64,000 nt of DNA from NCBI GenBank assembly GCA_037349105.1, contig JAYJMM010000106.1, forward strand, positions 2,563,594 through 2,627,593, read 5' to 3'. Position numbers and translations under genes: made by a program. A model generated the notes under the pieces. It made no database searches. It was not told where the DNA came from and worked only from the letters and a program-made list of their open reading frames with translations. Below, in pieces: positions 17 to 60,327 of the stretch. Every line of letters starts with the position of its first letter. The first letter of the stretch is position 1. The stretch comes from Limnomonas spitsbergensis (taxonomy: Eukaryota > Chlorophyta > Chlorophyceae > Chlamydomonadales).

Positions 17-3000
17 GCCCGCCAGCGGCGCCTGGCCGTCAGCTGGCTCACTGAGAACATCTCCAACCTCACCCTCCGTGCTGAGGCGGCAGCGGGTCTG
101 CGGGAGACCTGGCGGGAGTGGAACCCGCAGCGGGAGGCGGCAGAGACCCTGGAGCTGATGGTCAGATCAGGGGAAATATCATTCAAGGTGTGGGGACCCT
201 TTTGTGTGTGTACGATCCTGTTGGGTAGCGATGCTGGGGCTGTGGAGGCGGAGACTCTGTATCTCACGGTTAGATCTGGGGTATTGTACTATATTGTCAA
301 TAAACTAATACAGGTGCAGGTGCAAGAGTTTTGGGGGGAGGGACTGTTTCATCCCCCTCGATCCTCTTAATCCAACGTTCCTTGTTCCCATTTCCCTAAA
401 CCCTGTTTTGTTTATCCGCTGGACGCGATCATGCTAGATCTGCCGTGCTGGCGGATCTGCTGCCCTTGAATTTTAACCCGTCAGCGGCTTTTTTTTGAAC
501 CCTGATTTGATTTGCCTTGAAGGACACACCATCGCTGGTAGGTCCGCCAAGCTGGCAGATCTGCTGCATTTGAATTCGCCTGTTTGAAACATCGTTTGAG
601 TTCGCCATTTTTGAAATGCATTTTATTTGCATTGCAGGACACCATCGCCGGTGGATCCGCCAAGCTGGCAGATCCACTGCCCTAGAACTCGCCCCATTTT
701 AAACGCTTTTCAAATTCGCTTATTTGAGCCCTGGTTTTTTGTATTGCAGGACACCGTCACTGCTAGATCTGCCAAGCTGGCAGATCCGCTGCCCGGGAGC
801 ATCCCGCCAGCTGAGTCATACGATCGGGGCTGGTACCCGCACACAACGACGTTCAAGTGGCCAGCTCCCAAGGTGCGGATCAAGGCTGGGTGTGGAACCT
901 GGTGTGAAATGGATGGGACCTCTTTGATGGCACTTCTTGACGAGGCTCTTTGAACCGGGTCGTCAACTTTTGAATTCGTTGTTTGAATTCAAATTATGTT
1001 AAGAGGCAATTCCGACTTGTGTGAACCCCCACTTGCGTTTCTTCCTACAGGAGTCCAACACTTTTCATCAGGTGGTCGATCATTGAATCCAAAATTTGAA
1101 TATAAACCAGACAATTCCATCTGGCTTTTATGCCCCATGTGTGCCCCCCCACCTGTTCCAAACCACCCACCCCCAGGAGGCCGGCTCCTTCAACCAAGTG
1201 GGCAAGAGGCCCTCAGCGTTTAGAGTGGAGCAGCCGGGGGACCCCTGCCTGGGAGGACAGAGAGATGTTCCGCACATAGGAGTGATGCTCCGCTGTTTTT
1301 GTTCCAGCCTTCTTTCCCTTATGTGCTCCCTCCCACTTTCTTCAACCCCCCCTAGGAGGCCGGCTCTTTCAACCAGGTGGCAAAGAAGCCCTCGGCGTTC
1401 AGAGTGGAGCAGCTGGGCGACCCTTGGGAGGACGGAGAGATGTTCCACACAAAGGAGATCCGGGTGGCCGACCCCTCGCTGCCTACCTTCAACACGGTTG
1501 TCAAGAACCCCAGCAGGACATTTGAGCAGGTGCAGTTAAAGGATGGATTAGATCTGTGGTTAGATCTGGGATTAGATCAGCACAGAGAAGATCCGGGTGG
1601 CCGACCCCTGGCTGCCCACCTTAAATACGGTGGTCAAGAACCCCAGCGGTTCTTTGGAGCAGGTACAGATAAGCGATGGGTTAGATCTGGTGTTAGATCT
1701 GGGATAAGATCCGCACCAAAGAGATTTGGGTGGCTGATCCATCGTTGCCTACCTTTAACACGGTGGTCAAGAACCCCAGCGGGACATTTGAGCAGATACA
1801 GATAAAGGATAGATTAGATCTGTGGTCAGATCTGGGATCAGATCTTAACAAAGGAGATCCGGGCTGCTGATCCATCGCTGCCTACTTTCAACACGGTGGT
1901 CAAGAACCCCAGCGGTTCATCTGAGCAGATACAGATATACGATGGGATAGATCTGGTGTTAGATCTGGGATTAGATCCGCACCAAAGAGATTTGGTTGGC
2001 TGATCCATTGCTACCTACCTTCAACACGGTAGTCAAGAATCCCAGCGGGACATTTGAGCAGGTTCAGATAAAGGATGGATTAGATCTGTGGTCAGATCTG
2101 GGATCAGATCTGGGATGCTACGCTGTATGGCAAATGGAATGCATCCAAATTGAACGCTTCACTGAAATTTCATAAACTAGCAGGCCTAGTGAACATTTCA
2201 AACGCTCGACCCTGAACCCTACCAATTAGCAGGCCTAGTTTATGATTTAAGTCCTCAACCTGAATCCTAACCCTAATTTTTTCACAGGACGTTGAATATT
2301 TCAAGACTGTACACGTGGGCGGGGCAGGCCAAGTTAAGGATATAAATCCTCAACCCTGAACCTTTTCCCCCCATTCGGCACAGAACGTCTTACACTGCAA
2401 GACTGTTAACAAGGGCGGGGCAGGCCAATTAAAATGTGAATCCTCAACGATTTAAATCCTCTGACGTATCCCTACTCCCCGATTGTCCGCAGAACCTTGA
2501 CTACTTCAAGACCGTACACATGGGCGGGGCGGGTCGCGCCGCTGAGGAGGACGACGCCCGCGCCCGTCAGCGCTCCGAGTTTGCCTCCAAGCTGGTGGTC
2601 GACCACGTGGTGATGCGAGCCACCCTGCCGATCCGGAATAAAACATCGCAGATCGACCGCGGGAAGCATGTGTTACTGGTACGCATGCCACCATGTGTCT
2701 GGGGGGCTGATTCATTGACCCTTCACCATTTATCCTGAACCATTAAACCTCAATCACAAACCATTACAACCCAAAACCATCAATACTGCACCCAAGACCT
2801 TACAGGTATGTGTGTCCCCCATTGTTTCCTTTAGTGGGCACCAGACCACCCGTAGGCGGCCATAGGGCAGCCAACTCTGGGCCAGTTGGGACAAAATCTT
2901 GACCAACCTTTGGCCGGTGGCCCGAGCAGTAGGACTTGCTACCCCAGGCCCCTAAGGCCGTAGGCCGTGATGTAGCTGAATTGTAGCTGAATTGTAGCTG

Positions 3001-4247: not shown

Positions 4248-4530
4248 GTGGGGGGGGCACAAAGGGCCCCGTCACGGCCGCCACTGCCACCCCAGGCATG
4301 AGTGGGGGGGGCACAAAGGGCCCCGCCACGGCCGCCACTGCCACCCCTGGCATGAGTGGGGGGGGCACAAAGGGCCCCGCCACGGCCGCCACTGCCACCC
4401 CCTGCATGAGTGGGGGGGGCACAAAGGGCCCCGCCACTGCCACCCCCTGCATGAGTGGAGGGGGCATAAAGGGCCCCGCCACTGCCACCTCTGCCACCCC
4501 CTGCATATGGACTGAATATGGAGGGGGTGG
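4230..4530 (+). repeat. Tandem copies of the stop-codon region
   Basis: A unit of about 51 bp containing the terminal CCCTGCATGAGTGG (last sense codons and TGA) is repeated five to six times right after the true stop, then decays to about 4780 as GCC/CCG-rich sequence. Because it is GC-rich and lacks stops in some frames, it opens long spurious reading frames on both strands. Confidence 0.8.
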
Positions 4531-7081: not shown

Positions 7082-23634
<16,553 letters not shown>

Positions 23635-29355: not shown

Positions 29356-29359
29356 CAGG

Positions 29360-32230: not shown

Positions 32231-32239
32231 GTAAATAAT

Positions 32240-33860: not shown

Positions 33861-34105
33861 AGATTTGACAAACCTGTCGTACATACAGAAGCCATAGTTT
33901 GTATACTGTCTAGCCACTCGAAACCCGTGTGTTTCCCCGGATCTAGCCCGGATCTAGCCCAGATCCGGCTTTGATCTAATCAAGAGCAGAACCGGATCCC
34001 GCCAAGATCAGGCCCCGGATCTACTGCAGCTTCTGCATGTGGCTAGCCTTAGCACCTCCTTCCCGCCCCTGCTGCCCCCCTTCCGTCCGCAGGTCGCAAC
34101 TTGTC

Positions 34106-43100: not shown

Positions 43101-45064
43101 TGGCACATGCGTGTTGCGAGTGGCAGCAACTGGCGAGTCCTTTACATGTGGATGCTGACGTCAGATGTTTGGCGCACGCTTCAGTCACGGCGTATCTTGG
43201 GAGTGCTCTAAGCTCCACATATTCCCCGTACGGCACCCAACTGCTGTTTATCTCACACGCATTCCACACTTTTAACACCTATCCAAGCAGTACCATGAGA
43301 GTGCTGTAAGCCCCACCTTTTCCGAAGACGACACCCAACTGCTGTATACCTCACACTCATTCCACACTTGTCCACACCTATCCAGGCAGTACCACGGGAG
43401 TGCTCTAAGCCCCACATTTTCTCCGGACGGCACCCAACTGTCGTACATCTCACACATAGTCCACACATTTTCACACCTGTCCAGGCAGTACCACGGGAGT
43501 GCTCTAACCCCGACTTCCCCCGGATGACACCCAACTGTAGTACATCTCACTCATAGTCCACACATTTTCACACCGATCCAGGCAGTACCACGGGAGTGCT
43601 CTTAGTCCTACCCTTTCCCCAGACGGCACCCAACTGTTGTACATCTCACTCATAGTCCACACATTTTCACACCGATCCAGGCAGTACCACGGGAGTGCTC
43701 TTAGTCCTACCCTTTCCCCGGACGGCACCCAACTGTTGTACATCTCACTCATAGTCCACACATTTTCACACCGATCCAGGCAGTACCACGGGAGTGCTCT
43801 TAGTCCTACCCTTTCCCCGGACGGCACCCAACTGTTATAAATCTCACTCATGGTCCACACATTTTCACACCGATCCAGGCAGTACCACGGGAGTGCTTTA
43901 AGTCCTACCTTTTCTCCGGACGGCACCCAACTGTTGTACATCTCGCACGACGTAGCCGTCGCCACTGGCACGCATAGCGCCACTGCTAAGCTTTGTGCGA
44001 TGCCCTGGCCACAGGTAGGCGAGTAAATGGGGCTAACAGACATAACAAATACATTATTAATGCATCGCTATACATCTGAGCGGGTTGGGGGTCCGGGGAT
44101 TCGCCGTTCAGAAGAAATTTATATTTAAGTAAGAATGGGCATTTCAATGATATGTGTGTGCGGGGGACATGCATAGCGCCACTGCCAAGCTGTACACCAT
44201 ACCCTGGCCACTGGTAGGCGGGTGGGGGGGTGGGGGATTGGCGGTGTAGAAGAAATTAAACAACTGCCAAGCTGTACGCGATGCCCTGGCCATGGCTAAG
44301 CGGGTAAATGGGAACTAGAAGACATTGCAATACATCATAAAGGCATCGCTGTACATATGAGAGGGCTGGGGGTCGGGGGCACTGCGATTCAATAAGAGGG
44401 AGGGGGTTAAATGAACTGTGGGTGCAGGCGGCACGCATAGCACCACTGCCAAGGTGTGTGGCCTGTTCTGGCCACAGGTAGGTGGGTTGAAGTCATGTGC
44501 TGAAAAAATGAACATTCAAAAACAATGAGAGGGGAGGGGATTAAAATATCTGCGGGTGCGAGCATCACGCATAGCACCACTGCCAAGCTGTGTGCCATGC
44601 CATTGCTACAGGCAGGTAGATGCATGGGGGCTAAACATTATTGGGTGTCAGAGGCCGAGGAAACTCGAATTGTAAGAATAGGGGTTTTCTAAAGAGCTGT
44701 GGGTGCGGGGAGCATGCATGGTGCAACTGCCAAGATGTGTTTCCTGCCATGGCCAGGGGTTGGCGGGTTGGGAGAATAAACTAAATGGAAGTGCGTGGGA
44801 GGCTGACTCGATCTGCAATGCCCTGGCCTCAGGTATGCGGTTGGGGGGCGGGGGCAGGAAGATGTTATATTCAAATAAGAAGGGGGGGGGGGAAATGATC
44901 TGCGTTTGGGGGGTCAGAGGCTGAAGAGACCTGAATTATAATAAGAGAGGAAATCGTATTTTTAAAATCTGTGTGTGCGGACGCATGCATAGTGCAATTG
45001 CCAAGCTGTTTGTGGTGTCCTGGCCATGGTTGGGGGTCGGTGGCAGGAAAAAATAAATTAAGAA

Positions 45065-45099
<35 letters not shown>

Positions 45100-48000
45100 T
45101 TCATTACACGATAAACTAGCGGGGTTGTGTAAATTGTCAGCATGTGTGTGAAGGGGGGGGGGGGGGCAAAGATAATTGCAAGACTAATTAGGGAGGAGGT
45201 GCAAACGGTGTGTGACATGAGTGTGCAAGAGCATCACAAGGTGAAGTTGAGTTTGAATAGTGTGAAAATTTCACAGGGGCGCAGGTGGGAGCAAGAGCAG
45301 GACAAGGTGGCATTGAACTCTAATAGCGTGGGAATGCGACGAGGTTGCTTACAGGGGTGCGAGAGAAGGAGAGCTTTTGATAAGATGAGGGGTTAGGGGT
45401 TAGGGGTTCTATTCATAAAGGGGGGAATGCTGCTTAGGTGAGCTGGCTGGTGTAAAGGCAAGAGGATGCAAAATGAATCACAATATCATAACGCGGAGAG
45501 TGGGGTAAGGCCAGGATAAACTGTAATGGAGTCTAAAATAGAAAGAAATAAGACTAAAAAAAGTGGGGTAATGCCATAGGGGTGCTGGAGGGGGGGGGGG
45601 GGGGGGCAGGCAGATGATAGTGGAATGTAGTCAATTGCATTCCCGGTAGGGGAAGAAGCCACAAATGTGCAGGTGGGGCGCAGGTACAGGACGGACGCAG
45701 GTTGATATCATAATAATTATAAAATATGGGACATGCTTTGGGTGTACAGGTGGGCTGCAAGGCCAGTATACATTAAAACTGACAGTAGAAGAGTGAAAAA
45801 GGTGGAAATGCCTAGAAATTCAATGTGTGACAGTGGGGGGCAAGAGATGACGAAATTGAATTTCAGTGCGAATGAAATTATGATAGATCAATTGAAGTAA
45901 AAAAACGCAATTAAAATTAAAATACCGTACGGTAGTGAGTAAATGCCGCCAATCCAGGTGTGTGGGTGGTAGGCTAGGGCAGGAGAAACCGAATATAAGA
46001 AAGAGCACCGGTAGGGGGGCATTGCAGCCAATGCCGTTGTCGTTGCGGTTTTGTTTTGGTGTCCTGAGATGGTTTCCTCCCGGTTCGCTCTGCCTGGCCC
46101 TTTCGAAAAAGGCTGTGGGTGGTTGCGTCGACTTTGTAACAATAGCCCGTGTGTGGATAGGGCGTAGGAGCAGGAGGAATTGATTTTGGTAGTGATATTA
46201 TAATATATGGGAAATGCATCAGGTGTCAGGTGGGGGAGGCTAGGGCAGGATTACGAAAGTGAAACACGCAAATTAAAACGAAATGGAAATTGAAATCCGG
46301 GTGGAGAAAGAAAGAAAGAAAACAACGTCCCACAGGGGCGTGAGGGTTAAGGAAACAACGCGGCATGGGCCTAGGCCGCGTCCGCGCCGTTACCATCATA
46401 ACGAGAGATCCATGCAAGCTACGGTGGCTTGCGCTTCCGGCTGTGTTTTACTGGCTCACTGGTGGGTCCCGTTGTCGGGAAGAACTGTAACCTACGTCTG
46501 GTTTGCACAATACTGTGTACAAGTTTGTAGCGTGCACATGCATTTTTGAGCGCTCTTCCGGCAATATCCGGGATCTAGGTGGAATACAGCAGAGGGGGAT
46601 AGGAGAACGGGAAATAGGGAAATGTGAACTTTTCGGGGAATATCTCAAGCTTTCTAGTGTGCGGCGAGACAGAGGAAGGTTGGGAAATGACAACAGATCC
46701 TCGTGTTTGCCATTGAGGGGCAGGGGTAGGCCCTTAATCAAAACCCATGTACCCCATAACCTCCGTTATCCCCAATAAGCCGTTACGGTAACGGCGCGGA
46801 TGTGGCTTCGGCCCAGGATGCGCTGCTTCCTTAACCCTCACGCCTCCCACGTGGTGTAGCTTTCTTTCTTTCTTTTCACTAAGCCCCCCCCACGCTCACA
46901 AACCCTGAAATACGCATAGCTCATAGACGCAATAAACCCTGCGCCGCCCCCTGAAAGCACAACCCCCCTCACACCCTCAAACCCTCACCCCTCCATGGCT
47001 TCAGGTTGCATCGGGCCAGACGGCACCTCGTGAGCTGATCGCCGTCGTCGACACCCCGGAACCAGGAGCCTTCCCAGGCTTGTACGCGGCATCTTTGATC
47101 GACGCGCCATTCGTTGACAGTGGTGAGATAACTAGTTCAGGGTTTAAGGTTTGTGGTGTGTTCCAGACCAGGGGCGGCCTTTCTAGGTGGTTCCTTCCCA
47201 GGCCTGTACGCGGCATCTTTGATTGACGAGCCTTTGGTGGGAGGTTTGCCACGTGGGTCAGGGTGAAGGGGTTGAAGGGTGAAGAAAGTGTGAAGAATGG
47301 GGGACCTTGCCAGGCCTGTACGCGGCATCTTCGATCATCGAGCCTTTTGCGGGAGGTGAGTCACTTAGTTTAGGGCTTACAATGTGTGGTTTGTTCCAGA
47401 CCAGGGGCGGGTACCTCCTTTGGCGTGTACGCGGCGTCTTTTATCGACTAAGGAGTTCAGGTTAAAGAGTATCGACAAAGGGGTTCAGGGTTTAGGAAGT
47501 GTCCCAAAGGCCTGCTCCCCACTGCTGACAGAGTGGCTTCCTCACCTCCCCGTCCCCTAAGATCCATCCTCGCCCGCTTCTTCGCACCCTTTGTCATCCG
47601 CATCTTCTCTCTATAAATAAATAATAAATAAATATACAAGACGCCCTGAGGCGTGGATTAAGCAAGTACTCACATTTCTCTACCTCCTTACCCCTCTTGC
47701 CTCTCCCCTCCCCTCCTGCTCCCCACCTCCTTACCCCTCTTGCCTCTCCCCTCCCCTCCTGCTCCCCACCTCCTTACCCCTCTTGCCTCTCCCCTCCCCT
47801 CCTGCTCCCCACCTCCTTAGCCCTCTTGCCTCTCCCCTCCCCTCCTGCTCCCCACCTCCTTACCCCTCTTGCCTCTCCCCTCCCCTCCTGCTCCCCACCT
47901 CCTTACCCCTCTTGCCTCTCCCCTCCCCTCCTGCTCCCCACCTCCTTACCCCTCTTGCCTCTCCCCTCCCCTCCTGCTCCCCACTCATTACCCCTCTTGC

Positions 48001-51000
48001 CTCTCCCCTCCCCTCCTGCTCCCCACCTCCTTACCCCTCTTGCCTCTCCCCTCCCCTCCTGCTCCCCACCTCCTTACCCCTCTTGCCTCTCCCCTTCCCT
48101 CCTGCTCCCCACCTCCTTACCCCTCTTGCCTCTCCCCTCCCCTCCTGCTCCCCACCTCCTTACCCCTCTTGCCTCTCCCCTCCCCTCCTGCTCCCCACCT
48201 CCTTACCCCTCTTGCCTCTCCCCTCCCCTCCTGCTCCCCACCTCCTTACCCCTCTTGCCTCTCCCCTCCCCTCCTGCTCCCCACCTCCTTACCCCTCTTG
48301 CCTCTCCCCTCCCCTCCTGCTCCCCACCTCCTTACCCCTCTTGCCTCTCCCCTCCCCTCCTGCTCCCCACCTCCTTACCCCTCTTGCCTCTCCCCTCCCC
48401 TCCTGCTCCCCACCTCCTTACCCCTCTTGCCTCTCCCCTCCCCTCCTGCTCCCCACCTCCTTACCCCTCTTGCCTCTCCCCTCCCCTCCTGCTCCCCACC
48501 TCCTTACCCCTGTTGCCTCTCCCCTCCCCTCCTGCTCCCCACCTCCTTACCCCTCTTGCCTCTCCCCTCCCCTCCTGCTCCCCACCTCCTTACCCCTCTT
48601 GCCTCTCCCCTCCCCTCCTGCTCCCCACCTCCTTACCCCTCTTGCCTCTCCCCTCCCCTCCTGCTCCCCACCTCCTTACCCCTCTTGCCTCTCCCCTCCC
48701 CTCCTGCTCCCCACCTCCTTACCCCTGTTGCCTCTCCCCTCCCCTCCTGCTCCCCACCTCCTTACCCCTCTTGCCTCTCCCCTCCCCTCCTGCTCCCCAC
48801 CTCCTTACCCCTCTTGCCTCTCCCCTCCCCTCCTGCTCCCCACCTCCTTACCCCTCTTGCCTCTCCCCTCCCCTCCTGCTCCCCACTCATTACCCCTCTT
48901 GCCTCTCCCCTCCCCTCCTGCTCCCCACCTCCTTACCCCTCTTGCCTCTCCCCTCCCCTCCTGCTCCCCACCTCCTTACCCCTCTTGCCTCTCCCCTCCC
49001 CTCCTGCTCCCCACCTCCTTACCCCTCTTGCCTCTCCCCTCCCCTCCTGCTCCCCACTACTGGCAGAGTGGCTTATTTTGACGACCCAGTGGCGGAGCCA
49101 GACAGTCATCATTGCGGTGCACTCGCAGACCGGGCAGGTAAATAGACGTAACGCCAACATGACAAATGAATGTTGTAGATTTGATTTGCCTTCCCTCATA
49201 ATTCACGTTGGTTTGGGTTGAAGGATCCATTCATTTACTAATGATCAATTGTCGGCGTTTTTTGTCGAAAGTTTGCCCTGAGGGCAGAGCATTAAAATAA
49301 ATATTGTTTTGATGCCCGGGAGGTGGCAAATCAAATATTCGGTCAACAAACTAACAACAAACTTAATAACAAACTAACAACAAACTAATAACAAACTTAA
49401 TTACCCACATACCGGTACTGAAGAATATAGATACACAATGGACCACGTGCAAAATGACTGTCCCTTAGCTTTCTCGCTTGCAAAAAGGCAGGATCCGGGT
49501 ATCAAAACATGCGTAAATCCGGTGATAATAATACCGGTGAATCGGGTGCAAATAATAAATGTTTTTTTTGCTACTATGCTTGTCGTATATTATACCATAT
49601 ATGATAAAGGCAGCATACGATAAACAAGTAATGCCAGCGCCATGCCTAGGTGACCATGCCCTAAGTGACAGCAACGGGCTTTGATCGTGAGCCAGCCGGA
49701 CGGGTTATCGCAACATAACTGGGGGGGGTGAACGCCAGGTGGCCACGGCCCCAAGCTGCGTTGCTCTTTTAAAACCCAACGGCCAAGTACGGCGCGGCTT
49801 TCTTTCTTTTAGAGTGAGCCTGCAAATAAAACCTGAAGATAAAACCTGCAAATAAAACCTGCAAATAAAACCTGCAAACGAAACCTGCGTACAAAACCTG
49901 CAAATAAAACCTGCAAAAGAAACCTGCAAATAAAACTCGCAAACGAAACCTCTGAATAAAACCCGCAAATAAAACCTTCAAATAAAACCTGCAAATAAAA
50001 CCTGCAAATAAAACCTGCAAATAAAACCTGCAAATAAGACCTTCAAATAAAACCCGCAAATAAAACCTTCAAATAAAACCTGCAAATAAAACCTGCAAAT
50101 AAAACCTGCAAATAAAACCTGCAAATAAAACCCGCAAATAAGACCTTCAAATAAAACCTGCAAATAAAACCTGCAAACGAAACCTGCAAATAAAACTTGC
50201 AAACGAAACCTCCGAAAAAAACCCGCAAATAAAACCTTCAAATAAAACCTGCAAATAAAACCTGCAAAAGAAACCTTCAAATAAAACCTGCAAATAAAAG
50301 CCGCAAATAAAACCTGCAAATACGTTTAAGTAGGGCATACCTTTCTTTCCTTCTTAATGGACGAACAGCAGATCGGAGCGACATGAACCTCTAAACCTGC
50401 ATCAGAAAGGCTCATCGAGAAGACACGGGTGGATGCATGTGTCAGCGATACCGTCAGAAGGTCCCTGCTCTTCACACACTCTCACACTTTCACTGCTTCG
50501 CTGCAGATCTGCCTCCCTGAGGACCAAGGAGAGCACACATATTCACACTTCCCCACACTTGAACTGCTGTGCGGCAGGTCTGTCTCCCTGCGGATCAAGA
50601 GGTGGACACACACGTCCACACTTTACTGCCTTGCTGCAAGTGTGCCGCCCTGAGGACGAAGGCGGACACACATATTCACACTTCCCCACACTTGAACCGC
50701 CATTCAGCAGGTCTGTCTCCCTGTGGATGAAGGGGTGGACACAAATGCTCACACTTTCCCACACTTTGACCGCCGTGATGCAGGTATGCCTCCCTGCGGA
50801 TTCAGGTGGGTTCATATATATTCACACTTTCACCGCTGTGGTGCATGTTAGTCTCCCTGCAGATCATAGGGGGGCACACATGTTCACACTTCCCCACCCT
50901 TTTGCCGCCGTGCTGCATGTCCATCATGTGCGTCTAGAGGGCGGCGAGGCGCATAACTCTTTTCACACTCTTGGCAGTCTCCACACTTGTTCACATGTCC

Positions 51001-54000
51001 ATATTTTCACACTTTCACTGCCATGCAGCGGGTCTGCCCCTTGACCCCAGTCAAAGGCAATGCGAGGGCTGGCTACACGCTCATAGCCGTCTTTCCCAAC
51101 CTATGGACAAGTGTTATACTTCATATGTTCTGTTCACACTTCCGCTTTGGCGCTGCAATTCGATACATTTTTTCCTTTATTTTTCTTTTCGTCCCAAAAT
51201 CTTCGGCCGCCGATCGGCTGTAACTTCCCTGGTGCGCACTTCCACACTTGTAGTGATATGCTGCAGGTCTGTCCCCTAACCCCAGTGGGCGTTGAGGCAA
51301 GGGCATGATACGCACATGTAGCTGTCTCTCCACCCTTTTACACATCCACACTTGTACTGCTGTGCTGCAGGTCTGTCTCCTGACCCCAGTGGGCGGGGAG
51401 GCAAGGGCCTGATACACACGCGGCTGTCTCTCCACACATCCACACTTGTACTGCTATGCTGCAGGTTTGTCCCTTGAACCCAGTAGGCGGGGAGGAAAGG
51501 GCCTGATACACACGTGGCCATCTCTCCACACTTCCACACATCCACACTTGTACTTATACGCTGCAGGTCTGTCTCTTGATCCCAGTGGGCGGGGAGGCAA
51601 GGGCCTGAACCACATGTGGCAATCTCTCCACACATCCACACTTCCACACATCCACACTTGTACTGCTATGCTGCAGATCTCTCCCTTGACCCCAGTGGGT
51701 GGGTCGCCAAGGGCGTGCTACAATTCACGGCTGTCTCTCCACACCTCCACACTTGTACTGCTATGCCGCAGGTCTGTCCCTTAACACCAGTGGGCGGGGA
51801 GGCAAGGGCATGCTACACGCTCATGGCCGTCTCAGGGACACAGATCTACGCCACCAAGGTGCGTTCAGGGTTTCCTGGGGTTTAAGCCCAAGGCCATAAA
51901 CCCTTAACCAAAGGCCATGAACCCTAAACCTTAAACCATAAGCTAGACATGTACAATCAAAATCCACCCTGGACCTAAACCCTGGTGCATTAACCTTCAC
52001 CATTTACCCTGTACCACAAACCCTCGCTTAACTCTGTTCACAGCTGGTACCCACGGCCTGAGATCCACGCAGCAGGGTTTAGGTCCAGGGTGGATTTCCA
52101 GGGTTTTGTTGCTATTCACATGTATTCTCAACCCTGCTATACACTAACCAGGGTTTGTGGCATCGTTTCCTACCTGGATCCCCCCACGGCCTGATGGGAG
52201 GATCTCAGTGATGGCAGCAGACCCCTCTCATCCTATGGCCCTGTACCAAGACCCTGACACGTAAGCCTGGCTCCGAAACCTTCCACACCAAACCCTGTTC
52301 ACAGGGGGGGGGGGGCTCTCATCCTAAGGCATCAAACCTGTATCACAAACCCTGGCGCTTCACCCTACTTGCAGGTTGCACCCAACTGCCCCCACCGCCT
52401 CGTGACGGCCTCGTGGGTGGGACCCGGGGCTGACGGCAGGCCCCTCTCAGCCCTGGAGTGGTTGGACGTGGAGGGGGTGGATCCAGGTAGGGTCTGGGGT
52501 GACTTGTGAAGTGTGGATATAAACACTAATACAGGCAGGCCCCTCGCACCCCGGGAGTTGCTAGACGTGGGGGGTACAGGTAGTACTTGGGGTGACGCGT
52601 TGAACCCTAAACCCTATCGTGCAGGCATTCCTCCCAGCGTGGACAGGGCTTAGGATGAGAGGGCCCCCCTGTGACCAGGGTTTAGTGTAAGGTTTCGGAG
52701 ACAGGGTTTAAGCGTCACTTTGAACACCTCATGTGTTGTTGTGGCTGTGTGAGTGCTTGTTAGTCGTGTGCCTTCCCTGTTCCTGTTCGCCTTTTCTCAG
52801 CTGTCAACGAGGGCCACATGCGCACACGGGCTGTGTTTGCGCCTCAGGTTTTCAAGGGTTGGGCGGCCGGCGTCTCACCTTGTTGAGTCCATGCAAGACG
52901 AACACTGCAGTGCAGGCATGCCCCCCAGCGTGGCCAGCGCCCTTGAGGGTCTGATGTATGAGGTTTAAACCCACCCCTTAACCCTGTTGTGCAGGGATGT
53001 CCCCCGCGTGGCCAGTGCCCTCCTGGATAAAGGATTAATCCAGACCATAAACCTAAATCCTGCCTTGCAGGCATGCCCCCCAGCGTGGCCAGCACCCTCC
53101 AAGGTCGCTAGAGGGTTAACCCTAATCTTGAACACAAACCCTGTTGTTCAGGCATGCCCCCCGGCGTGGCAAGCGCCCTAGGGGGTCTGCAGTACAAGGG
53201 TGATCCCCCCAACTCTAACTCTTGCTGTTCAGACATGCCCCCCAGCGTGGCAAGCGCCCTAGGGGGTCTGCAGTACAAGGGTGACCCCCCCAACTCTAAC
53301 TCTTGCTGTTCAGACATGCCCCCCAGCGTGGCAAGCGCCCTAGGGGGTCTGCAGTACAAGGGTGATCCCCCAACTCTAACTCTTGCTGTTCAGACATGCC
53401 CCCCAGCGTGGCAAGCGCCCTAGGGGGTCTGCAGTACAAGGGTGATCCCCCCAACTCTAACTCTTGCTGTTCAGGCATGCCCCCCAGCGTGGCAAGCGCC
53501 CTAGGGGGTCTGCAGTACAAGGGTGATCCCCCCAACTCTAACTCTTGCTGTTCAGGCATGCCCCCCAGCGTGGCAAGCGCCCTAGGGGGTCTGCAGTACA
53601 AGGGTGATCCCCCCAATTCTAACTCTTGCTGTTCAGGCATGCCCCCCAGCGTGGCAAGCGCCCTAGGGGGTCTGCAGTACAAGGGTGATCCCCCCAACTC
53701 TAACTCTTGCTGTTCAGGCATGCCCCCCAGCGTGGCAAGCGCCCTAGGGGGTCTGCAGTACAAGGGTGACCCCCCCAACTCTAACTCTTGCTGTTCAGGC
53801 ATGCCCCCCAGCGTGGCAAGCGCCCTAGGGGGTCTGCAGTACAAGGGTGACCCCCCCAACTCTAACTCATGCTGTTCAGGCATGCCCCCCAGCGTGGCAG
53901 GCGCCCTAGGGGGTCTGCAGTACAAGGGTGATCCCCCCAACTCTAACTCTTGCTGTTCAGGCATGCCCCCCAGCGTGGCAAGCGCCCTAGGGGGTCTGCA

Positions 54001-57000
54001 GTACAAGGGTGATCCCCCCAACTCTAACTCTTGCTGTTCAGGCATGCCCCCCAGCGTGGCAAGCGCCCTAGGGGGTCTGCAGTACAAGGGTGACCCCCCC
54101 AACTCTAACTCTTGCTGTTCAGGCATGCCCCCCAGCGTGGCAGGCGCCCTAGGGGGTCTGCAGTACAAGGGTGATCCCCCCAACTCTAACTCTTGCTGTT
54201 CAGGCATGCCCCCCAGCGTGGCAAGCGCCCTAGGGGGTCTGCAGTACAAGGGTGATCCCCCCAACTCTAACTCTTGCTGTTCAGGCATGCCCAGCGTGGC
54301 AAGCGCCCTAGGGGGTCTGCAGTACAAGGGTGATCCCCCCAACTCTAACTCTTGCTGTTCAGGCATGCCCCCCAGCGTGGCAAGAGCCCTAGGGGGTCTG
54401 CAGTACAAGGGTGATCCCCCCAACTCTAACTCTTGCTGTTCAGGCATGCCCCCCAGCGTGGCAAGCGCCCTAGGGGGTCTGCAGTGCAAGGGTGACCCCC
54501 CCAACTCTAACTCTTGCTGTTCAGGCATGCCCCCCAGCGTGGCAGGCGCCCTAGGGGGTCTGCAGTACAAGGGTGATCCCCCCAACTCTAACTCTTGCTG
54601 TTCAGGCATGCCCCCCAGCGTGGCAAGAGCCCTAGGGGGTCTGCAGTACAAGGGTGACCCCCCCAACTCTAACTCTTGCTGTTCAGGCATGCCCCCCAGC
54701 GTGGCAAGCGCCCTAGGGGGTCTGCAGTACAAGGGTGATCCCCCCAACTCTAACTCTTGCTGTTCAGGCATGCCCCCCAGCGTGGCAAGCGCCCTAGGGG
54801 GTCTGCAGTACAAGGGTGATCCCCCCAACTCTAACTCTTGCTGTTCAGGCATGCCCCCCAGCGTGGCAGGCGCCCTAGGGGGTCTGCAGTACAAGGGTGA
54901 TCCCCCCAACTCTAACTCTTGCTGTTCAGGCATGCCCCCCAGCGTGGCAAGAGCCCTAGGGGGTCTGCAGTACAAGGGTGATCCCCCCAACTCTAACTCT
55001 TGCTGTTCAGGCATGCCCCCCAGCGTGGCAAGCGCCCTAGGGGGTCTGCAGTACAAGGGTGACCCCCCCAACTCTAACTCTTGCTGTTCAGGCATGCCCC
55101 CCAGCGTGGCAAGCGCCCTAGGGGGTCTGCAGTACAAGGGTGATCCCCCCAACTCTAACTCTTGCTGTTCAGGCATGCCCCCCAGCGTGGCAAGCGCCCT
55201 AGGGGGTCTGCAGTACAAGGGTGATCCCCCCAACTCTAACTCTTGCTGTTCAGGCATGCCCCCCAGCGTGGCAAGCGCCCTAGGGGGTCTGCAGTACAAG
55301 GGTGATCCCCCCAATTCTAACTCTTGCTGTTCAGGCATGCCCCCCAGCGTGGCAAGCGCCCTAGGGGGTCTGCAGTACAAGGGTGATCCCCCCAACTCTA
55401 ACTCTTGCTGTTCAGGCATGCCCCCCAGCGCGGCAAGCGCCCTAGGGGGTCTGCAGTACAAGGGTGACCCCCCCAACTCTAACTCTTGCTGTTCAGGCAT
55501 GCCCCCCAGCGTGGCAAGCGCCCTAGGGGGTCTGCAGTACAAGGGTGACCCCCCCCAACTCTAACTCTTGCTGTTCAGGCATGCCCCCCAGCGTGGCAGG
55601 CGCCCTAGGGGGTCTGCAGTACAAGGGTGATCCCCCCAACTCTAACTCTTGCTGTTCAGGCATGCCCCCCAGCGTGGCAAGCGCCCTAGGGGGTCTGCAG
55701 TACAAGGGTGATCCCCCCAACTCTAACTCTTGCTGTTCAGGCATGCCCCCCAGTGTGGCAAGCGCCCTAGGGGGTCTGCAGTACAAGGGTGACCCCCCCA
55801 ACTCTAACTCTTGCTGTTCAGGCATGCCCCCCAGCGTGGCAGGCGCCCTAGGGGGTCTGCAGTACAAGGGTGATCCCCCCAACTCTAACTCTTGCTGTTC
55901 AGGCATGCCCCCCAGCGTGGCAAGCGCCCTAGGGGGTCTGCAGTACAAGGGTGATCCCCCCAACTCTAACTCTTGCTGTTCAGGCATGCCCCCCAGCGTG
56001 GCAAGCGCCCTAGGGGGTCTGCAGTACAAGGGTGATCCCCCCAACTCTAACTCTTGCTGTTCAGGCATGCCCCCCAGCGTGGCAAGCGCCCTAGGGGGTC
56101 TGCAGTACAAGGGTGATCCCCCCAACTCTAACTCTTGCTGTTCAGGCATGCCCCCCAGCGTGGCAAGCGCCCTAGGGGGTCTGCAGTACAAGGGTGACCC
56201 CCCCAACTCTAACTCTTGCTGTTCAGGCATGCCCCCCAGCGTGGCAGGCGCCCTAGGGGGTCTGCAGTACAAGGGTGATCCCCCCAACTCTAACTCTTGC
56301 TGTTCAGGCATGCCCCCCAGCGTGGCAAGAGCCCTAGGGGGTCTGCAGTACAAGGGTGATCCCCCCAACTCTAACTCTTGCTGTTCAGGCATGCCCCCCA
56401 GCGTGGCAAGCGCCCTAGGGGGTCTGCAGTACAAGGGTGACCCCCCCAACTCTAACTCTTGCTGTTCAGGCATACCCCCCAGCGTGGCAAGCCCCCTGGG
56501 CGGTATGTAGTACGAGAGTGACCCCAAACCCTGAAATGTGTCACGCAGGCATGCCCCCCAGCGTGGCCAGTGCACTAGAGGGCCTGCAGTACGCGGTTGT
56601 GGAGGTCAGACCCACGCAGACGCCGGGAGGGAGTGCTGCCGTCGTGGCCTCGGAGGCGCATGCGTTTGAGAGCGTCAACTTCTTTCCCAAGCAGCGCGCC
56701 GGTCAGTGCGGGTGGCTGGCTGGAATGGGTTCAGGGTTTGGGGTGTACGGAAGAAATGCACCACGGGGCAGTGGGGGCAGCTGACTGGTTTAGGGTTAAG
56801 ATTTTTGTGGATTTTCAGGGTTTAGGGTCAAAAGATAAGAAAGTCACTGATAAGTGGGAGCCGATGACTAATTAAGGGTTGAAGGTCTAGGTTTTCAGGG
56901 GTAAGAGTGTTGATGAGAAGCGCGTTGGTCAGTGTGGGCGGCTGACTGGCTTGGGTGAAGGTTCGGTTGTTTTTTGTAAGGAAAGAAGCGCGCAGTTCAC

Positions 57001-60000
57001 TGGAAGCAGCTGACTGGCTTTCGTGCATGGTGGTCTGAGTCTGGATCTGGATCTGGATTGGGATCTGTGGCAGGGTCTGGATATGGATCCGGGACTGGTC
57101 TGGTTTTGGATCTGGGTCTGGGTCTCAGTTTGGGCCTGGATCTGGGTCTGGATCTGGGTCTCAGTCTGCACCTGGATCTGGATCTGGGACTGGATCTGGA
57201 TTTGGGTTCTGGGTCTGGGTTTGGGTTTAGGGTTTGGCTTATGGATCTGGGTTCTGGGTCTCTGTCTGGGTCTGGTTTAGGATCTTGGTAATCAGGGGGG
57301 TTGGGGCTTGGTATTCTGATTCTAGGCCTGGATCTGGGTATCAGTATGGGCCTGGGCCTAGGCCTGTTTGTGTGATGTTACCTTTATGACACACCACCAT
57401 CTGCCTGGTGTTCCCTCTCTCTCTCATGGTAGGCCCTCATACCATGAAGCCTCCCCTCTTTGCTGACGTCACCATCATCATCCAATGACTGTTGTTGCCT
57501 CTCGCCTGTGGCAGGCCCTCTGCCCACGATCATCGTCCCACACGGCGGGCCGCACACGGCCATGACCGTGGGGTACTTCATGCCCTATGCCTACCTGGCA
57601 ACGTTAGGGTATGCTGTACTGTGCCCTAATTACAGGTAAGCGGTGCATTTTGTAGTACGCCTACCTGGCAACGTAAGGGTGTGCCGTGCTGTGTCCGAAC
57701 TGCAGGTAAGCGGTGCATTTTGTAGTACGCCTACCTGTCAATGTCAGGGTTCAGATTGCTGTGCCCTAAGCACAGGCGAGTGGTTGTTTACTGTACTGCC
57801 CCAGTGGATGATGTAGCTGAATAGTAGCTGAATAGTAGCTGAATTGTAGCTGAATAGTACCTGAACTGCATACAAGCAGGGCATGCTTCAGCAGGCACAC
57901 TTGTGGCATGCCACAATGTAGCTGATGTGTAGCTGATTAGTAGCTGGCATGTAGCTGATGTGTAGCTGATTAGTAGCTGATGTGTAGCTGATGTGCAGCT
58001 GATTCGTAGCTGGCATGTATCTGATGTGTAGCTAATGTGTAGCTGATGTGTAGCTGACGTGCAGTCCATGTTTAGATGACTAGTAGCTTGCGTGTAGCTG
58101 ATTTGTGACTGGTGCACCCTAGAGTAATACATTGCCTCCCATTCTCCCTCTCGTCCTTTCCGGGGATCCCCAGGATTTGTTCAGGCCTCACTGCCACATT
58201 GCCGCTGATGTGAGGCTGATGTGGAGCTTATGTGAAGTTGATGATAATCTGATGTGAAGCTGATGTGGAGCTGATAAGAAGCTGGTGTGAAGGTGATAGG
58301 AAGCTGATAAGAAGCTAATGTAAAGCTGATAAGAACCTGATGTGAAGCTGATGTGAACTGATGTGAAGCTGATGTGAAGCTGATGTGAAGCTGATGTGAA
58401 GCTGATGTGAAGCTGATGTGAAGCTGATAATAACTTGATGTGAAGCTGGCAAGAAGCTGATACAAAGCTGATATTTTAGCTCCTTTGAGGGGTTCAGCTG
58501 GTTTCGGTCAGGATTCCCTGGCCTCCCTGCCACATTGCCACATTGCCGTTAAACCCTTAACCCTAAACCCTGTGCTCCTTTCAGGGGTTCGACTGGTTTC
58601 GGTCAGAATTCCCTGGCCTCCCTGCCCGGCAACATCGGCACAAATGATGTCCAGGACTGCATGGCCACTCTGAAACAAGCAGTGGACGCAGGTACGTCAT
58701 ACTTTGAGTCGGGGACTCAATGTGCCTCAGCTACAATTCAGCTGCAGCTCAGCTAAAATTCAGTTACTGACGCAGGTGCTCCAATGCTGGTGTCAGGCTG
58801 CTTCAGCTACTTCCAGCTACCTCATGAGTATGCACTATAGAGTACCGGTAGTGGATGCAAGCGTGTGGCCATTGCATGCTGTGTTTTCTGTATGGTGTTC
58901 AGCTACATTTCAGCTACATTTCAGCTACATTTCAGCTAGAGAGCAAGAAAGAAAAAAACTTCGCCCGCAGGGGCGTGAGGGCTAAGGAAATAGTGCAGCA
59001 TGGGCCTAGGCTGCGCCGTAACCATCACAATAAAAAATTATAATTTTGATTTATGGACACACCTGTGGCAGCTGGCATGCGCTTTGTATAGTGCATGGTG
59101 TTTTGATGTTGCATAGTTGTTGCATCATGCATGGATGTTGCGTAAATGTTGCATGGTACTTTGATGTCACATGTTGCCTGGTTGTTGCATAAACGTTGCA
59201 TGTTTGTTGCATATGGCAAAATTGTGTGTGGAACGTAGTGTGGAACGTAGTGTGGAACGTCCGTAGTGTGGAACGTCCGTAGTGTGGAACGTAGTGTGGA
59301 ACGTAGTGTGTCTACCCAGCCTTCTGTTTAAACTACTCTGTAACCGCAGTTCGGCTTTTAACAGAACACTTGCAGCCATGTGTTTATCCATATTGGTTTA
59401 GGGTTTAAACAAAACCCTAAAGCCTAAACCCTATTGCGGCCATGGGCCCTAAAGCCTACACCCATGGACCCTAAAGCCTAAACCCTCTTGCGGCCATGTG
59501 CAGCATACGTCCATAGTGGAGGGTTCAAAAAGAATCCTGCCGCCATGGAAAATATCATGAAGACTATCATGAAAAAGATCATGCAGCAATCTTACAAAAT
59601 ATTGTCTTCATCATCATCACACGTGTGAGAAACCCGGGTATTCACACTTCCACAGCCCTCCATGTTTGCAATTCAGCTGTCCACACCCCGCTCCGTTTCT
59701 CTGCTGGTTGGTGCGTGTCTGCTCCGGCCTTGGTGGGTGATCTCCCACCAAGCGTGCCCTGCCTCTGGCCCTTTGGAAGAAAAAAATGCTCTGTGGGTGA
59801 TTGACTTTATCAATAATGGTCAATAGACCAACTGCGGCAGGTTCCTGGGGGCTTTTTAAGAATGGTCGGCTGACACCGACCACCCTATTTTTCCGGTTGG
59901 CTGACGCCGACCACGTGCTATTTTCCCGCCGGCTGAACTCCGTAATTTTTTTGTGAAGTGTGAGGTCACACTGACTCCTGAGGTACGCGTCCCTTCACCC

Positions 60001-60327
60001 CTGGACCCCGTCGCTCCGTCCTTCTCGCTCTGAAACCTAATTAGCTATCATATGTAACCTCGCCAATAGACCTGCGCTTGTCAAGTGACCCCGATTCCTA
60101 TACACCCCTGGCCCCTATCCCATTCGCCTTTCTCTCTCCAAACTATTTTTTTACCCACACCCACAGAGCTGCGCTTGCCATGCCCTCTCAGGGATCGCCG
60201 ACCCGGACAGAGTTCAGGGTTTAGGGTTAATATTGTTTTGTTTAACCACGCCAACAGAGCTGTGCTTGCCATGCCCTCTCAGGGATCGCCGACCCGGACA
60301 GAGTTGCCGTGGTGGGGGGGTCGCACG
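34106..60327 (+). CDS. AARE: Acylamino-acid-releasing enzyme (acylaminoacyl-peptidase, S9C), 3' end off window
   Basis: Eighteen exons join in frame: 34106-34219, 34276-34344, 34791-34901, 35283-35430, 36380-36447, 38363-38497, 39663-39783, 42154-42340, 42537-42647, 43879-44014, 47005-47122, 49067-49137, 51772-51858, 52375-52486, 56549-56701, 57515-57635, 58585-58691 and 60283-60327. The enzyme removes N-acylated residues from peptides (EC 3.4.19.1). The beta-propeller part shows LSQRNLPGNCQRKF, LLVPKAVHGALVNDGYF and GVVFCYNRPAYLYYV. The hydrolase part shows VPHGGPH (oxyanion hole), YRGSTGFGQNSL, then GIADPDRVAVVGGSHG with the nucleophile Ser. The catalytic Asp and His exons lie beyond 64000. 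It matches plant AARE closely in order and motifs. About 671 codons spread over 26 kb. Donors of exons 5 (36448) and 7 (39784) are GC, and exon 2 is the least certain. Confidence 0.92.
34950..35212 (+). repeat. AARE exon 3 end copies (three) and exon 4 copy
   Basis: The exon 3 end encoding QVRACGPDA recurs at about 34958-34992, 35036-35070 and 35130-35165, after the true donor at 34902. A partial copy of exon 4 (AACTGCC..TTCACGGT) lies at 35179-35212, before the true exon at 35283. Confidence 0.85.
35454..35548 (+). mobile_element. Short SINE-like insertion with 9-bp target duplication
   Basis: The 77 bases at 35463-35539 are flanked by CTAGCGAGG on both sides (35454-35462 and 35540-35548). 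The insert starts CGCGGATGTGGCTTCGG and ends in a T/C-rich tail. Relatives occur at about 46775-46880 (plus) and, reversed, at 46305-46395 and 58945-59035. A diverged one is at 49735-49805. No clear tRNA-type A or B box could be assigned. Confidence 0.75.
35560..36360. other. Intronic stretch with MITE-like half copies
   Basis: This is AARE intron 4 sequence. Two diverged half copies of the GTAGATTTGATTTGCC-type terminal repeat lie near 35888-35910 and 36056-36080. GTAGCTGAATTG words follow at 36224-36330. There are no coding features. Confidence 0.5.
36450..37390. repeat. GTGGGCAATAYGAGGG minisatellite starting at the exon 5 donor
   Basis: Alternating units of about 25 bp (GGGCAATACGAGGGGCC and GGGCAATATTAGGGCCTG) form about 50-bp dimers from the GC donor of AARE exon 5 onward. 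The first unit overlaps the donor itself (GCAAGTGTGGGCAATACG). Frames on both strands are artefacts. Confidence 0.95.
37410..38350. repeat. Pyrimidine-rich arrays before AARE exon 6
   Basis: The 7-bp CCCCTGC tandem (37410-37560, about 20 copies) is followed by C-rich blocks of about 60 bp (CTCGCATGCCCCTCC..TTTTCATCCACC) at 37900-38350. They run into the acceptor of exon 6 at 38361-38362 and so give it a very long polypyrimidine tract. Confidence 0.9.
38505..38720. repeat. Telomere-like CCCTAAA/CCCTGGA string
   Basis: Tandem CCCTAAA and CCCTGGA heptamers, variants of the plant-type telomere repeat, directly follow the AARE exon 6 donor. Similar shorter strings occur at 3240-3290, 12305-12345 and in many other introns. 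Confidence 0.85.
38735..39280 (+). repeat. Copies of AARE exon 6 end
   Basis: Segments resembling GGCGCTGGTCAACGACTGC.. through GAGGATATGGTGGCATACAC (the exon end encoding EDMVAYTAD) recur at about 38738-38765, 38820-38885, 38975-39010, 39095-39125 and 39215-39275. Confidence 0.8.
39330..39530 (+). repeat. Two copies of AARE exon 7 start
   Basis: GGCAG acceptor plus GTGTC(A/T)GAGAAGACCCC-like exon starts occur at about 39333-39390 and 39478-39530, before the true exon at 39663. The first ends in a stop-bearing variant. Confidence 0.85.
39830..40790 (+). repeat. About eight copies of AARE exon 7 end
   Basis: Units of about 121 bp contain the exon end encoding LEDWGELNTG and its donor. Most copies have a GCAAGT donor like the true exon, while the copy near 40036 has GTAAGT. 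Exon copies are separated by ATGGGATGAGTAATGAGTTG-like filler. Confidence 0.9.
41020..42015 (+). repeat. Nine copies of AARE exon 8 start
   Basis: Units of about 115 bp each hold a polypyrimidine stretch, an acceptor (GTTCAG or ACACAG), and the exon start encoding QSPAVF, then GGAVIKVP. All precede the true exon at 42154. The copies keep reading sense in their exon part. Confidence 0.95.
42749..43090 (+). other. Intronic stretch with an unexplained open frame
   Basis: Within AARE intron 9 a 60-codon frame (42749-42931) reads like protein (PEFHMLRYPQEGCRQDCLDD). It matches nothing I recognise and has no supporting splice pattern. It is probably a fragment of an inserted element. Confidence 0.2.
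43190..43870 (+). repeat. Seven copies of AARE exon 10 start
   Basis: Units of about 98 bp with TATCCAG/GATCCAG acceptors and the exon start encoding QYHGSALSPTFSPDGTQLLY end just before the true exon at 43879. Copies near the true exon are almost identical and distant ones decay. Confidence 0.95.
44160..45040 (+). repeat. Seven copies of AARE exon 10 end
   Basis: The exon end encoding GTHSATAKLCAMPWP with its GTAGGC-type donor recurs at about 44166, 44263, 44428, 44565, 44710, 44800 and 44985. Spacing is irregular (about 100-190 bp), with GGGGTCGGGGG-rich filler. Confidence 0.9.
45064..45099. repeat. Poly-G run of about 33 bases
   Basis: A long homopolymer G tract in AARE intron 10. A similar run ends the window (63966-64000). 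Lengths are probably unreliable in any assembly. Confidence 0.9.
46305..46885. mobile_element. Two SINE-like copies in opposite orientation
   Basis: The copy at 46305-46395 (reverse, GAAAGAAAGAAAG tail on the left) and the copy at 46782-46879 (forward, CTTTCTTTCTTTC tail on the right) share about 90 bases at moderate identity. The forward copy is flanked by TAAGCC at 46776-46781 and 46880-46885. Together they form an imperfect long inverted repeat of about 580 bp. They could be two independent insertions or the ends of one element; the target duplication around the forward copy favours independent insertions. Confidence 0.65.
47180..47455 (+). repeat. Three copies of AARE exon 11 end
   Basis: The exon end encoding GLYAASLIDAPFV recurs at about 47195-47250, 47310-47358 and 47425-47452, after the true donor at 47123. 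Confidence 0.9.
47684..49060. repeat. 43-bp pyrimidine minisatellite, about 32 copies
   Basis: Near-perfect 43-bp units (CTCTTGCCTCTCCCCTCCCC, then TCCTGCTCCCCACCTCCTTAC) run straight into the acceptor of AARE exon 12 at 49065-49066. The region is purely pyrimidine-rich on the plus strand, so every unit is a potential polypyrimidine tract. It opens frames of 430-480 codons in all three plus frames, none of them real. A copy of the exon 12 start (CTGACAGAGTGGCTT) lies before the array at 47513. Confidence 0.95.
49171..49342. mobile_element. MITE-like element, copy 1
   Basis: The left end GTAGATTTGATTTGCCTTCC is matched by a degraded inverted right end (GGCAAATCAAATATTC near 49326-49341). The middle holds the palindrome TGCCCTGAGGGCA, also found in the better-preserved copy at 60421-60620. 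Confidence 0.6.
49815..50330. repeat. 13-bp minisatellite CCTGCAAATAAAA
   Basis: About 40 tandem copies with variants (CTTCAAATAAAAC, CGCAAACGAAACC). Minus frames read Gly-Phe-Ile-Cys-Arg-Phe-type repeats and are artefacts. Confidence 0.95.
50445..51720 (+). repeat. About thirteen copies of AARE exon 13 start
   Basis: Units of about 65-110 bp with GCAG acceptors and CTGTCYCTTGACCCCAGTGG-like exon starts (encoding VCPLTPVGGEA) precede the true exon at 51772. Spacers are CACACTTCCACAC-rich and serve as pyrimidine tracts. Copies closest to the exon are most similar. Confidence 0.9.
52185..52585 (+). repeat. Flanking copies of AARE exon 14
   Basis: A degraded internal/start copy lies near 52190-52225, upstream of the exon at 52375. 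An exon-end copy with its GTAGT donor lies at 52530-52585. Confidence 0.7.
52620..56510 (+). repeat. 81-bp array of AARE exon 15 start, about 41 regular plus 5 decayed copies
   Basis: From about 53150 the unit is exactly 81 bp. It has a pyrimidine stretch, CTGTTCAG acceptor, an exon start encoding MPPSVASALGGLQYKG, and then GTGATC. Decayed copies precede it from 52626. The true exon starts at 56549 with a slightly different junction (CACGCAG). Because 81 is a multiple of three with no stop, frames of 720-748 codons open on both strands. In each unit the stretch from acceptor to GTGATC is 48 nt with equal phase (1) at both ends. Confidence 0.97.
56915..57020 (+). repeat. Copies of AARE exon 15 end
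   Basis: The exon end and donor region (AAGCGCGCCGGTCAGTG plus GCTGGCTGG) recurs at about 56917-56950 and 56986-57020. Confidence 0.75.
57030..57370. repeat. GGATCTGGGTCTG short repeat
   Basis: Six-base GGATCT/GGGTCT words are repeated through about 300 bp of AARE intron 15. There is no coding signal. Confidence 0.85.
57648..57785 (+). repeat. Two copies of AARE exon 16 end
   Basis: The exon end encoding AYLATLGYAVLCPNY plus its GTAAGC donor recurs at about 57655-57715 and 57725-57785. The first copy keeps CAGGTAAGC and the second CAGGCGAGT. Confidence 0.9.
57815..58460. repeat. GTAGCTGATGT / GAAGCTGATGT short tandem repeats
   Basis: Two neighbouring blocks of 11-base words: GTAGCTGAWNT at 57815-58110 and GAAGCTGATGT at 58200-58460. 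They belong to the same word family as at 2970-3018. Past exon 17 (58725-58940) the motif appears in the reverse orientation (TTCAGCTACA). Confidence 0.85.
58480..58550 (+). repeat. Copy of AARE exon 17 start
   Basis: About 60 bases resemble acceptor plus exon 17 start (GGGGTTC..CTGGTTTCGGTCAG). They lie 100 bp before the true exon at 58585. Confidence 0.85.
60170..60220 (+). repeat. Copy of AARE exon 18 start
   Basis: TTGCCATGCCCTCTCAG acceptor and GGATCGCCGACCCGGACAGA exon start are duplicated about 90 bp before the true exon, and then switch to TTTAGGG-like filler before the serine motif is reached. Confidence 0.9.

Follow-up and report, generated by a model that had tools for sequence, protein, structure and literature searches.

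Mirage-like tandem copies of splice junctions in introns of the green alga Limnomonas spitsbergensis

In a 64,000-nucleotide (nt) stretch of the Limnomonas spitsbergensis genome (assembly GCA_037349105.1, contig JAYJMM010000106.1, positions 2,563,594 to 2,627,593; hereafter the window), introns carry tandem copies of the adjacent exon edges together with their splice sites. Three genes are found in the window: a FAP92-like gene on the forward strand, AFG2B (CDC48B-like) on the reverse strand and AARE on the forward strand. Based on the present data, these copies are probably junction minisatellites of the type described in lancelets as 'mirages': introns would grow by local tandem duplication, and duplications that span a junction would be tolerated as long as the exon is defined by its outermost splice sites.

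Exons of AFG2B and AARE were mapped by tblastn with human VCP and APEH and then with green-algal homologs, and were joined into open frames. This gave 10 and 16 exons, respectively, and 24 introns, all of which have GT-AG or GC-AG ends (the two GC-AG introns of AARE are R3-R4, with the donor at 36448, and R5-R6, with the donor at 39784). Missing from the models are the terminal exon of AFG2B and, in AARE, the first exon and the C-terminal exons, the latter lying beyond the contig end. A purpose-written spliced aligner recovered 24/24 acceptors and 22/24 donors of these models; it also split two exons and inserted small spurious exons where conservation is weak. Built on the outermost splice sites, the models have stop-free frames that agree with orthologs. 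This supports the proposal, made in an earlier sequence-only reading of the window, that a junction-spanning duplication would leave the coding sequence intact through use of the outermost site.

In BLAST searches of AFG2B and AARE, 30 of the 48 junction sides had copies of their junction region within the adjoining intron; 20 of the 24 introns contained such copies, and both the 5' and the 3' intron boundaries were affected. Of the 172 matches, some of which overlap, 155 cross the junction. Exon sequence makes up 8-81 nt of a match, and the splice signal is usually present as well: AG is kept in 109/123 acceptor matches and GT or GC in 26/32 donor matches. The reverse strand gave no copies (0/48 sides), and the same queries searched against five length-matched other introns each gave 5/240. 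On the strength of this last control we rejected an origin from mobile introner-like elements or transposons; such elements could fill introns that are large and variable in size, as these are, but the copies match their own exon edges, and we see next to no chance for this explanation. In a stricter edge test, 36-nt exon edges were compared with 200 dinucleotide shuffles of the intron and scored as positive at no more than 1/200. Exon starts were positive against the upstream intron in 14/24 cases and exon ends against the downstream intron in 10/24, giving 24/48 sides in total, whereas the wrong-side control was positive at 1/48. Exon interiors were positive in 9/78 tests, and 6 of these 9 belong to exons that also have a positive edge on the side concerned.

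The sequence-only reading had reported such copies in most introns of all three genes, in more than 30 arrays, always upstream of the acceptor or downstream of the donor. The copies themselves are confirmed, and 'most introns' holds for AFG2B and AARE; two arrays were checked in the FAP92-like gene. The array count is about right by BLAST (30 sides plus these two) and drops to 24/48 sides in the edge test. The side rule follows in part from the design, since the searches were confined to adjacent introns, and the wrong-side control, with its single positive, is the real test.

Junction-derived families cover 50% of the intron bases in AFG2B and 46% in AARE (see Table). The A2-A3 intron consists almost wholly of copies, the donor-side and acceptor-side runs meeting at about 19031. 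The fundamental units of the arrays measure about 22-140 nt; Tandem Repeats Finder (TRF) gives some arrays as multiples, up to 376. The R13 matches fall mostly in one 81-bp array (TRF 53145-56592), which extends into the exon; a 139-bp array lies at 19541-20977. Weak cases in the BLAST set are the R9-R10 acceptor match, with 8 nt of exon, and the doubtful 22-nt array in the A8-A9 intron.

Junction copying is not local to the window. We analyzed eight further genes (two CDC48 paralogs, TCP1, two CCT7 paralogs, CCT2, CCT8 and CCT4), which were chosen for conservation and easy recognition, not randomly; the CCT2 and CCT7b models are partial. BLAST as run found copies at 17/66 sides in the first gene set and 24/104 in the second. 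With a decayed TCP1 copy left out (12 sides, none positive), the count is 41/158 sides and 34/79 introns, with 3/158 in the reverse-strand control; a decayed TCP1-like copy with in-frame stops lies at locus L025. The edge test was positive at 32/156 correct sides, 2/156 wrong sides and 17/326 exon interiors. In these eight genes and AFG2B and AARE together (the ten genes), 54/103 introns carry junction copies, and every gene, on six contigs in all, has at least one junction side with copies. Pooled Fisher tests gave 2e-15 for correct against wrong sides and 7e-12 for correct sides against interiors. Exon interiors (9/78, 17/326) and wrong-side edges (1/48, 2/156) are thus rarely copied, which supports the selective tolerance proposed in the sequence-only reading. 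That all ten genes, spread over six contigs, have such copies also argues against false tandem copies or misjoins in the assembly, as does the divergence of most BLAST matches (66% upward), which is unlike that of falsely duplicated reads; the window does sit at a contig end, but an assembly artefact is very improbable.

Introns with junction copies are longer than those without (median 711.5 nt versus 270 nt in the ten genes). With rising intron length, copies were found in 1/15 (40-150 nt), 4/15, 14/25, 22/32 and 13/16 (>1200 nt) introns. Together with the share of junction-derived bases in AFG2B and AARE, this bears out the link with intron growth that had been proposed.

In the parts available to us, two reports on lancelets (PMC3087553, PMC3902484) describe mirages in Adh, troponin C, globins and PGBD5 as minisatellite-like tandem duplications across intron-exon boundaries. 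They occur at 5' and 3' ends, with units of 10-160 bp and many copies with AG or GT; reverse transcription-PCR (RT-PCR) suggests normal splicing, and haplotypes differ in copy number. The algal arrays, as read from the genome, share this structure: a repeat that spans the boundary (155/172 matches), both intron ends, similar unit size and retained splice signals. They are thus not unprecedented, and the view that iterated junction arrays were unknown did not hold up. There are differences. Mirages are described, in these parts, from few lancelet genes and with RT-PCR and haplotypes, whereas the alga has them in 54/103 introns of ten genes, as seen in the genome sequence, with up to 46 matches in one intron. 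The length instability of mirages is reported between alleles, whereas in the alga paralogs differ in which junctions carry copies. A donor-bearing minisatellite in a human interferon-induced gene is another precedent, one that our literature search did not return.

In the mechanism that we propose, local tandem duplications with units mostly of 40-140 nt would strike repeatedly, often straddling a splice junction. The copy closest to the exon body would retain the coding frame, and the splice site beside it (the downstream-most acceptor or the upstream-most donor) would keep defining the exon, while the inner copies, each an exon fragment with a splice signal, would turn into intron. The array would extend and homogenise as other minisatellites do, decay and be replaced, and introns would thereby grow and turn over with the protein unchanged. 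The position, side and frame of the copies, their recurrence in paralogs and their link with intron length are demonstrated at the level of the genome sequence. Purifying selection on exons presumably shapes the pattern, and for the mutational route we would guess that breaks are repaired with fill-in or slippage and that unequal exchange then takes over.

Recurrence is best seen in the CDC48 paralogs, which have all 13 modelled intron positions in common and 89% exon identity. None of the 13 intron pairs aligned at E 1e-5, yet 6/13 and 7/13 introns carry junction copies of their own, partly at different junctions. Since these introns are unalignable and both paralogs have copies of their own, the process recurs: the copies can only have formed, or been replaced, once the paralog introns had diverged. 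Recurrence of junction duplication is thus well supported. Of the 9 intron pairs in the CCT7 paralogs, 4 remain alignable in part, which would allow some arrays to be of greater age. CDC48 and CCT7 are each present as a pair of close paralogs, and the same two contigs carry both pairs (C39 and C99; loci L019/L020 and L022/L023). This arrangement suggests that a large segment or the whole genome was duplicated and that most intron sequence was turned over.

Several observations weigh against the proposed mechanism. Of the 22 intron pairs compared in CDC48 and CCT7, 10 have copies on the same side in both paralogs, which could reflect shared ancestry predating the paralogs or predisposed junctions. 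The frequency of copies is uneven, with 1/7 introns in TCP1 and 1/8 in CCT8, and junction-derived families make up 0.00-0.40 of the intron bases in the eight further genes, less than in AFG2B and AARE; greater richness in the latter two is expected because the window was selected for the pattern. That the outermost sites are those actually spliced is something we infer from the models. Finally, telomere-like filler in the introns would fit capture during break repair, but this is no more than suggestive, and composition controls largely reproduce the strand bias of the filler.

The data behind this last point are as follows. Arrays of TTTAGGG occur at 4/20 contig ends tested in this alga. Variants of this repeat reach about 5-7 per kb in introns of the window genes versus 0.8-0.9 in shuffled sequence (for example at 38505-38730 and 19031-19457), are no commoner than expected by chance in the intergenic stretch 23700-34000 and range from 0 to 8.9 per kb in introns of the eight further genes. 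Each rotation of TTTAGGG was counted 58-103 times, whereas 133 permutations averaged 10.4, with two of them reaching 45 and 69; the enrichment over motifs of the same composition is about sevenfold. The G-strand after donors or the C-strand before acceptors was found at 46 sides versus 13 in the opposite sense. However, composition-matched controls lean alike (414 versus 245; GGG-containing permutations, 46 versus 20), and intron GC skew in the ten genes is positive after donors in 77/99 cases and negative before acceptors in 67/96. Because controls and skew show the same lean, the orientation is not specific evidence, and telomerase-healed breaks were rejected as the mechanism; the enrichment itself stands. 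The strand skew, G-rich after donors and C-rich ahead of acceptors, is a feature of introns in the ten genes in its own right. In mammals, according to the part of the report available (PMC2246262), interstitial telomeric repeats are inserted at break sites. The alga is similar in having telomere-like repeats within introns beside duplications, and by this analogy insertion during break repair may be suggested, no more.

The same arrays might arise with no preference for junctions at all, if introns were saturated by random tandem duplication, edges were caught passively and selection purged exon damage. This alternative departs from the proposed mechanism solely in where duplications arise, and we give it slightly less than an even chance. 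Consistent with it, local-duplication coverage deep in introns is no lower than that at junctions (0.55-0.83 at 200-600 nt versus 0.56-0.73 within 40 nt), and it decays into exons roughly as expected for uniformly placed units of about 100 nt, reaching zero at 80-100 nt. Other genome stretches are duplicated too, with a mean coverage of 0.38 in 18 stretches, two of which adjoin the window; this coverage is very uneven genome-wide (0.00-0.68 per 10-kb stretch, L003-L018). The coverage profile was set aside as a sole test because junction-derived copies occupy much of the deep intron. Counts of complex repeat families in the ten genes point the other way: 53/82 families include a junction, against 27.4 expected for the unduplicated intron remainder and 16.8 for present intron lengths, both under a crude null of uniform placement. 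Relative to the unduplicated remainder, the excess holds for young families of at least 85% identity (19/25 versus 9.2 expected); it is also seen in the eight further genes alone (27/46 versus 14.2), and TRF arrays in introns lie at junctions in 17/40 cases versus 6.5 expected. If ancestral introns measured about 150 nt, however, 57.9 junction families would be expected and the excess vanishes. A preference for junctions of about twofold over uniform placement is thus likely, but depends on intron length at the time of each duplication. Of the earlier idea that junctions are recurrent seeds, recurrence stands through the CDC48 paralogs, and preference stands subject to this dependence. It is possible, though rather doubtful, that junctions are preferred duplication sites in the stronger sense that a boundary-tied mutational process, beyond selective tolerance, is what makes introns grow across the genome of this alga, with decaying exon-end copies as its record.

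Retention of splice signals could also mean that the copies are selectively kept as decoy or auxiliary sites regulating splicing. AG is kept in more acceptor matches (109/123) than the 80.8 expected from identity squared, GT or GC in 26/32 donor matches versus 22.0, and an intact decoy is present at 25/26 junction sides with a scorable match. However, 46 of the 109 AG matches come from one intron, mostly from one homogenised array, and are therefore not independent, while the A2 array retains AG in only 6/13 matches versus 10.7 expected. Arrays differ between paralogs, and many introns have none. Where exon and copy differ in a codon, orthologs side with the exon in 63 cases and with the copy in 5, so the copies decay as unconstrained sequence. 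We consider a regulatory role improbable. A 'fossil exon' idea was also rejected as a general one: where the exon has LNIE, copies in the R6 intron read LDLQ and orthologs LDL or LDT, but with all junctions taken together the copy sides with orthologs against the exon at just those 5 codons.

Duplication of exon sequence carrying AGGT is a described route of intron gain (PMC3443670, PMC4974935, in the parts available). The likeness is that a local duplication carries splice signals and coding can stay intact (PMC3443670). In that route, as these parts describe it, the block lies within an exon and the new intron forms between the copies, whereas in the alga we did not find the duplicated block to be wholly exonic: in 155/172 matches it straddles an existing junction, and the intron is lengthened. 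For Daphnia, the available part of one report (PMC4202315) describes neointrons from staggered double-strand break repair, with exon-end direct repeats and internal repeats, and proposes passive intron growth via repeated breaks. Unlike Daphnia neointrons, the algal introns have matched blocks of tens of nt, often iterated, in runs from their own junction.

By these data, mirages as described in lancelet genes would extend to green algae, which is notable for its reach. The growth of introns can seldom be followed, since their sequence is soon lost to decay. In this alga a conserved exon anchors the copied exon part, which makes it possible to recognise single duplications, to count them and to compare them between paralogs. 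As 54/103 sampled introns are affected, the alga could be used to study whether duplications are drawn to junctions and how one of many near-identical sites is chosen by the spliceosome.

Table. Exons and junction-derived arrays in the window (positions counted from its first nucleotide; matches are BLAST matches)
Gene	Feature	Position	Strand	Details and support
FAP92-like	acceptor and exon-start copies	494-794	+	true start taken at 750 (TTGCAG/GACACCG); copy at 638
FAP92-like	exon-end and donor copies	1444-2110	+	FEQ at 1521-1529, 1787-1795, 2053-2061
AFG2B	exons A1-A10 as mapped	8342-22668	-	A1 ends 22668; A2 19569-19421; A3 18462-18317; A4 17911-17750; A5 17334-16888; A6 15334-15198; A7 14580-14392; A8 12810-12715; A9 11387-11184; A10 8403-8342
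AFG2B	A1 exon end and donor	22330-22649	-	2 matches; edge test and BLAST
AFG2B	A2 acceptor and exon start	19666-21512	-	13 matches, 23-44 nt exon, AG kept 6/13
AFG2B	A2 exon end and donor	19031-19355	-	4 matches, GT in all; edge test and BLAST
AFG2B	A3 acceptor and exon start	18533-19033	-	6 matches; BLAST
AFG2B	A3 exon end (77 nt) and donor	17995-18253	-	2 matches; edge test and BLAST
AFG2B	A6 acceptor and exon start	15426-16054	-	6 matches; edge test and BLAST
AFG2B	A6 donor matches	15035-15168	-	BLAST; edge test 4/200 shuffles, below threshold
AFG2B	A7 acceptor matches	14704-14987	-	BLAST
AFG2B	A7 exon-end fragment	14340-14362	-	
AFG2B	A8 acceptor and exon start	12878-12963	-	1 match; edge test and BLAST
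AFG2B	A9 acceptor and exon start	11456-12214	-	21 matches; those in the 22-nt array 11825-12214 doubtful
AARE	exons R1-R16	34791-60327	+	R1 34791-34901; R2 35283-35430; R3 36380-36447; R4 38363-38497; R5 39663-39783; R6 42154-42340; R7 42537-42647; R8 43879-44014; R9 47005-47122; R10 49067-49137; R11 51772-51858; R12 52375-52486; R13 56549-56701; R14 57515-57635; R15 58585-58691; R16 60283-60327
AARE	R1 donor side	34958-35160	+	edge test and BLAST
AARE	R2 acceptor side	35174-35210	+	edge test and BLAST
AARE	R4 donor	38732-39275	+	edge test and BLAST
AARE	R5 acceptor	39295-39520	+	edge test and BLAST
AARE	R5 exon end (79-80 nt) and donor	39832-40786	+	8 matches, GC donor in 7, GT in 1
AARE	R6 acceptor and exon start	41033-42018	+	11 matches, 62-72 nt exon, unit 108
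AARE	R7 exon near start	42460-42491	+	1 match, stops short of junction; BLAST
AARE	R8 acceptor and exon start	43192-43845	+	7 matches, unit 99; edge test and BLAST
AARE	R8 exon end and donor	44168-45026	+	6 diverged matches; edge test and BLAST
AARE	R9 exon end	47193-47448	+	3 matches
AARE	R10 acceptor	47511-47539	+	weak match
AARE	R11 acceptor and exon start	50998-51737	+	6 matches; edge test and BLAST
AARE	R12 start	52001-52053, 52186-52233	+	weak matches; edge test negative
AARE	R12 end	52534-52574	+	weak match; BLAST
AARE	R13 acceptor and exon start	52603-56548	+	46 matches, AG in all; edge test and BLAST
AARE	R13 exon end and donor	56916-57031	+	2 weak matches, 12-13 nt exon; edge test negative
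AARE	R14 exon end and donor	57656-57784	+	2 matches; edge test and BLAST
AARE	R15 acceptor and exon start	58146-58531	+	58146-58193 weak, 58479-58531 strong
AARE	R16 acceptor and exon start	60146-60214	+	match; edge test and BLAST

The window, nuclear DNA from a green alga of the Chlamydomonadales, has a GC content of 54.8%. Its 5' gene is similar to FAP92 (PDB 7n6g FAP92, E 5.8e-10), and a Pfam search of this gene returned no informative family. The best homolog of AFG2B is in Chlamydomonas eustigma (63% identity), and the closest named relatives of AARE are in UWO 241 and C. eustigma. Between AFG2B and AARE lies a leucine-rich-repeat coding stretch at 28340-29355 (Pfam LRR_4). An 11-bp GTAGCTGAAT-type tandem repeat occurs at separate places (2971-3020, 39129-39180, 57813-58061 and 58898-58938).
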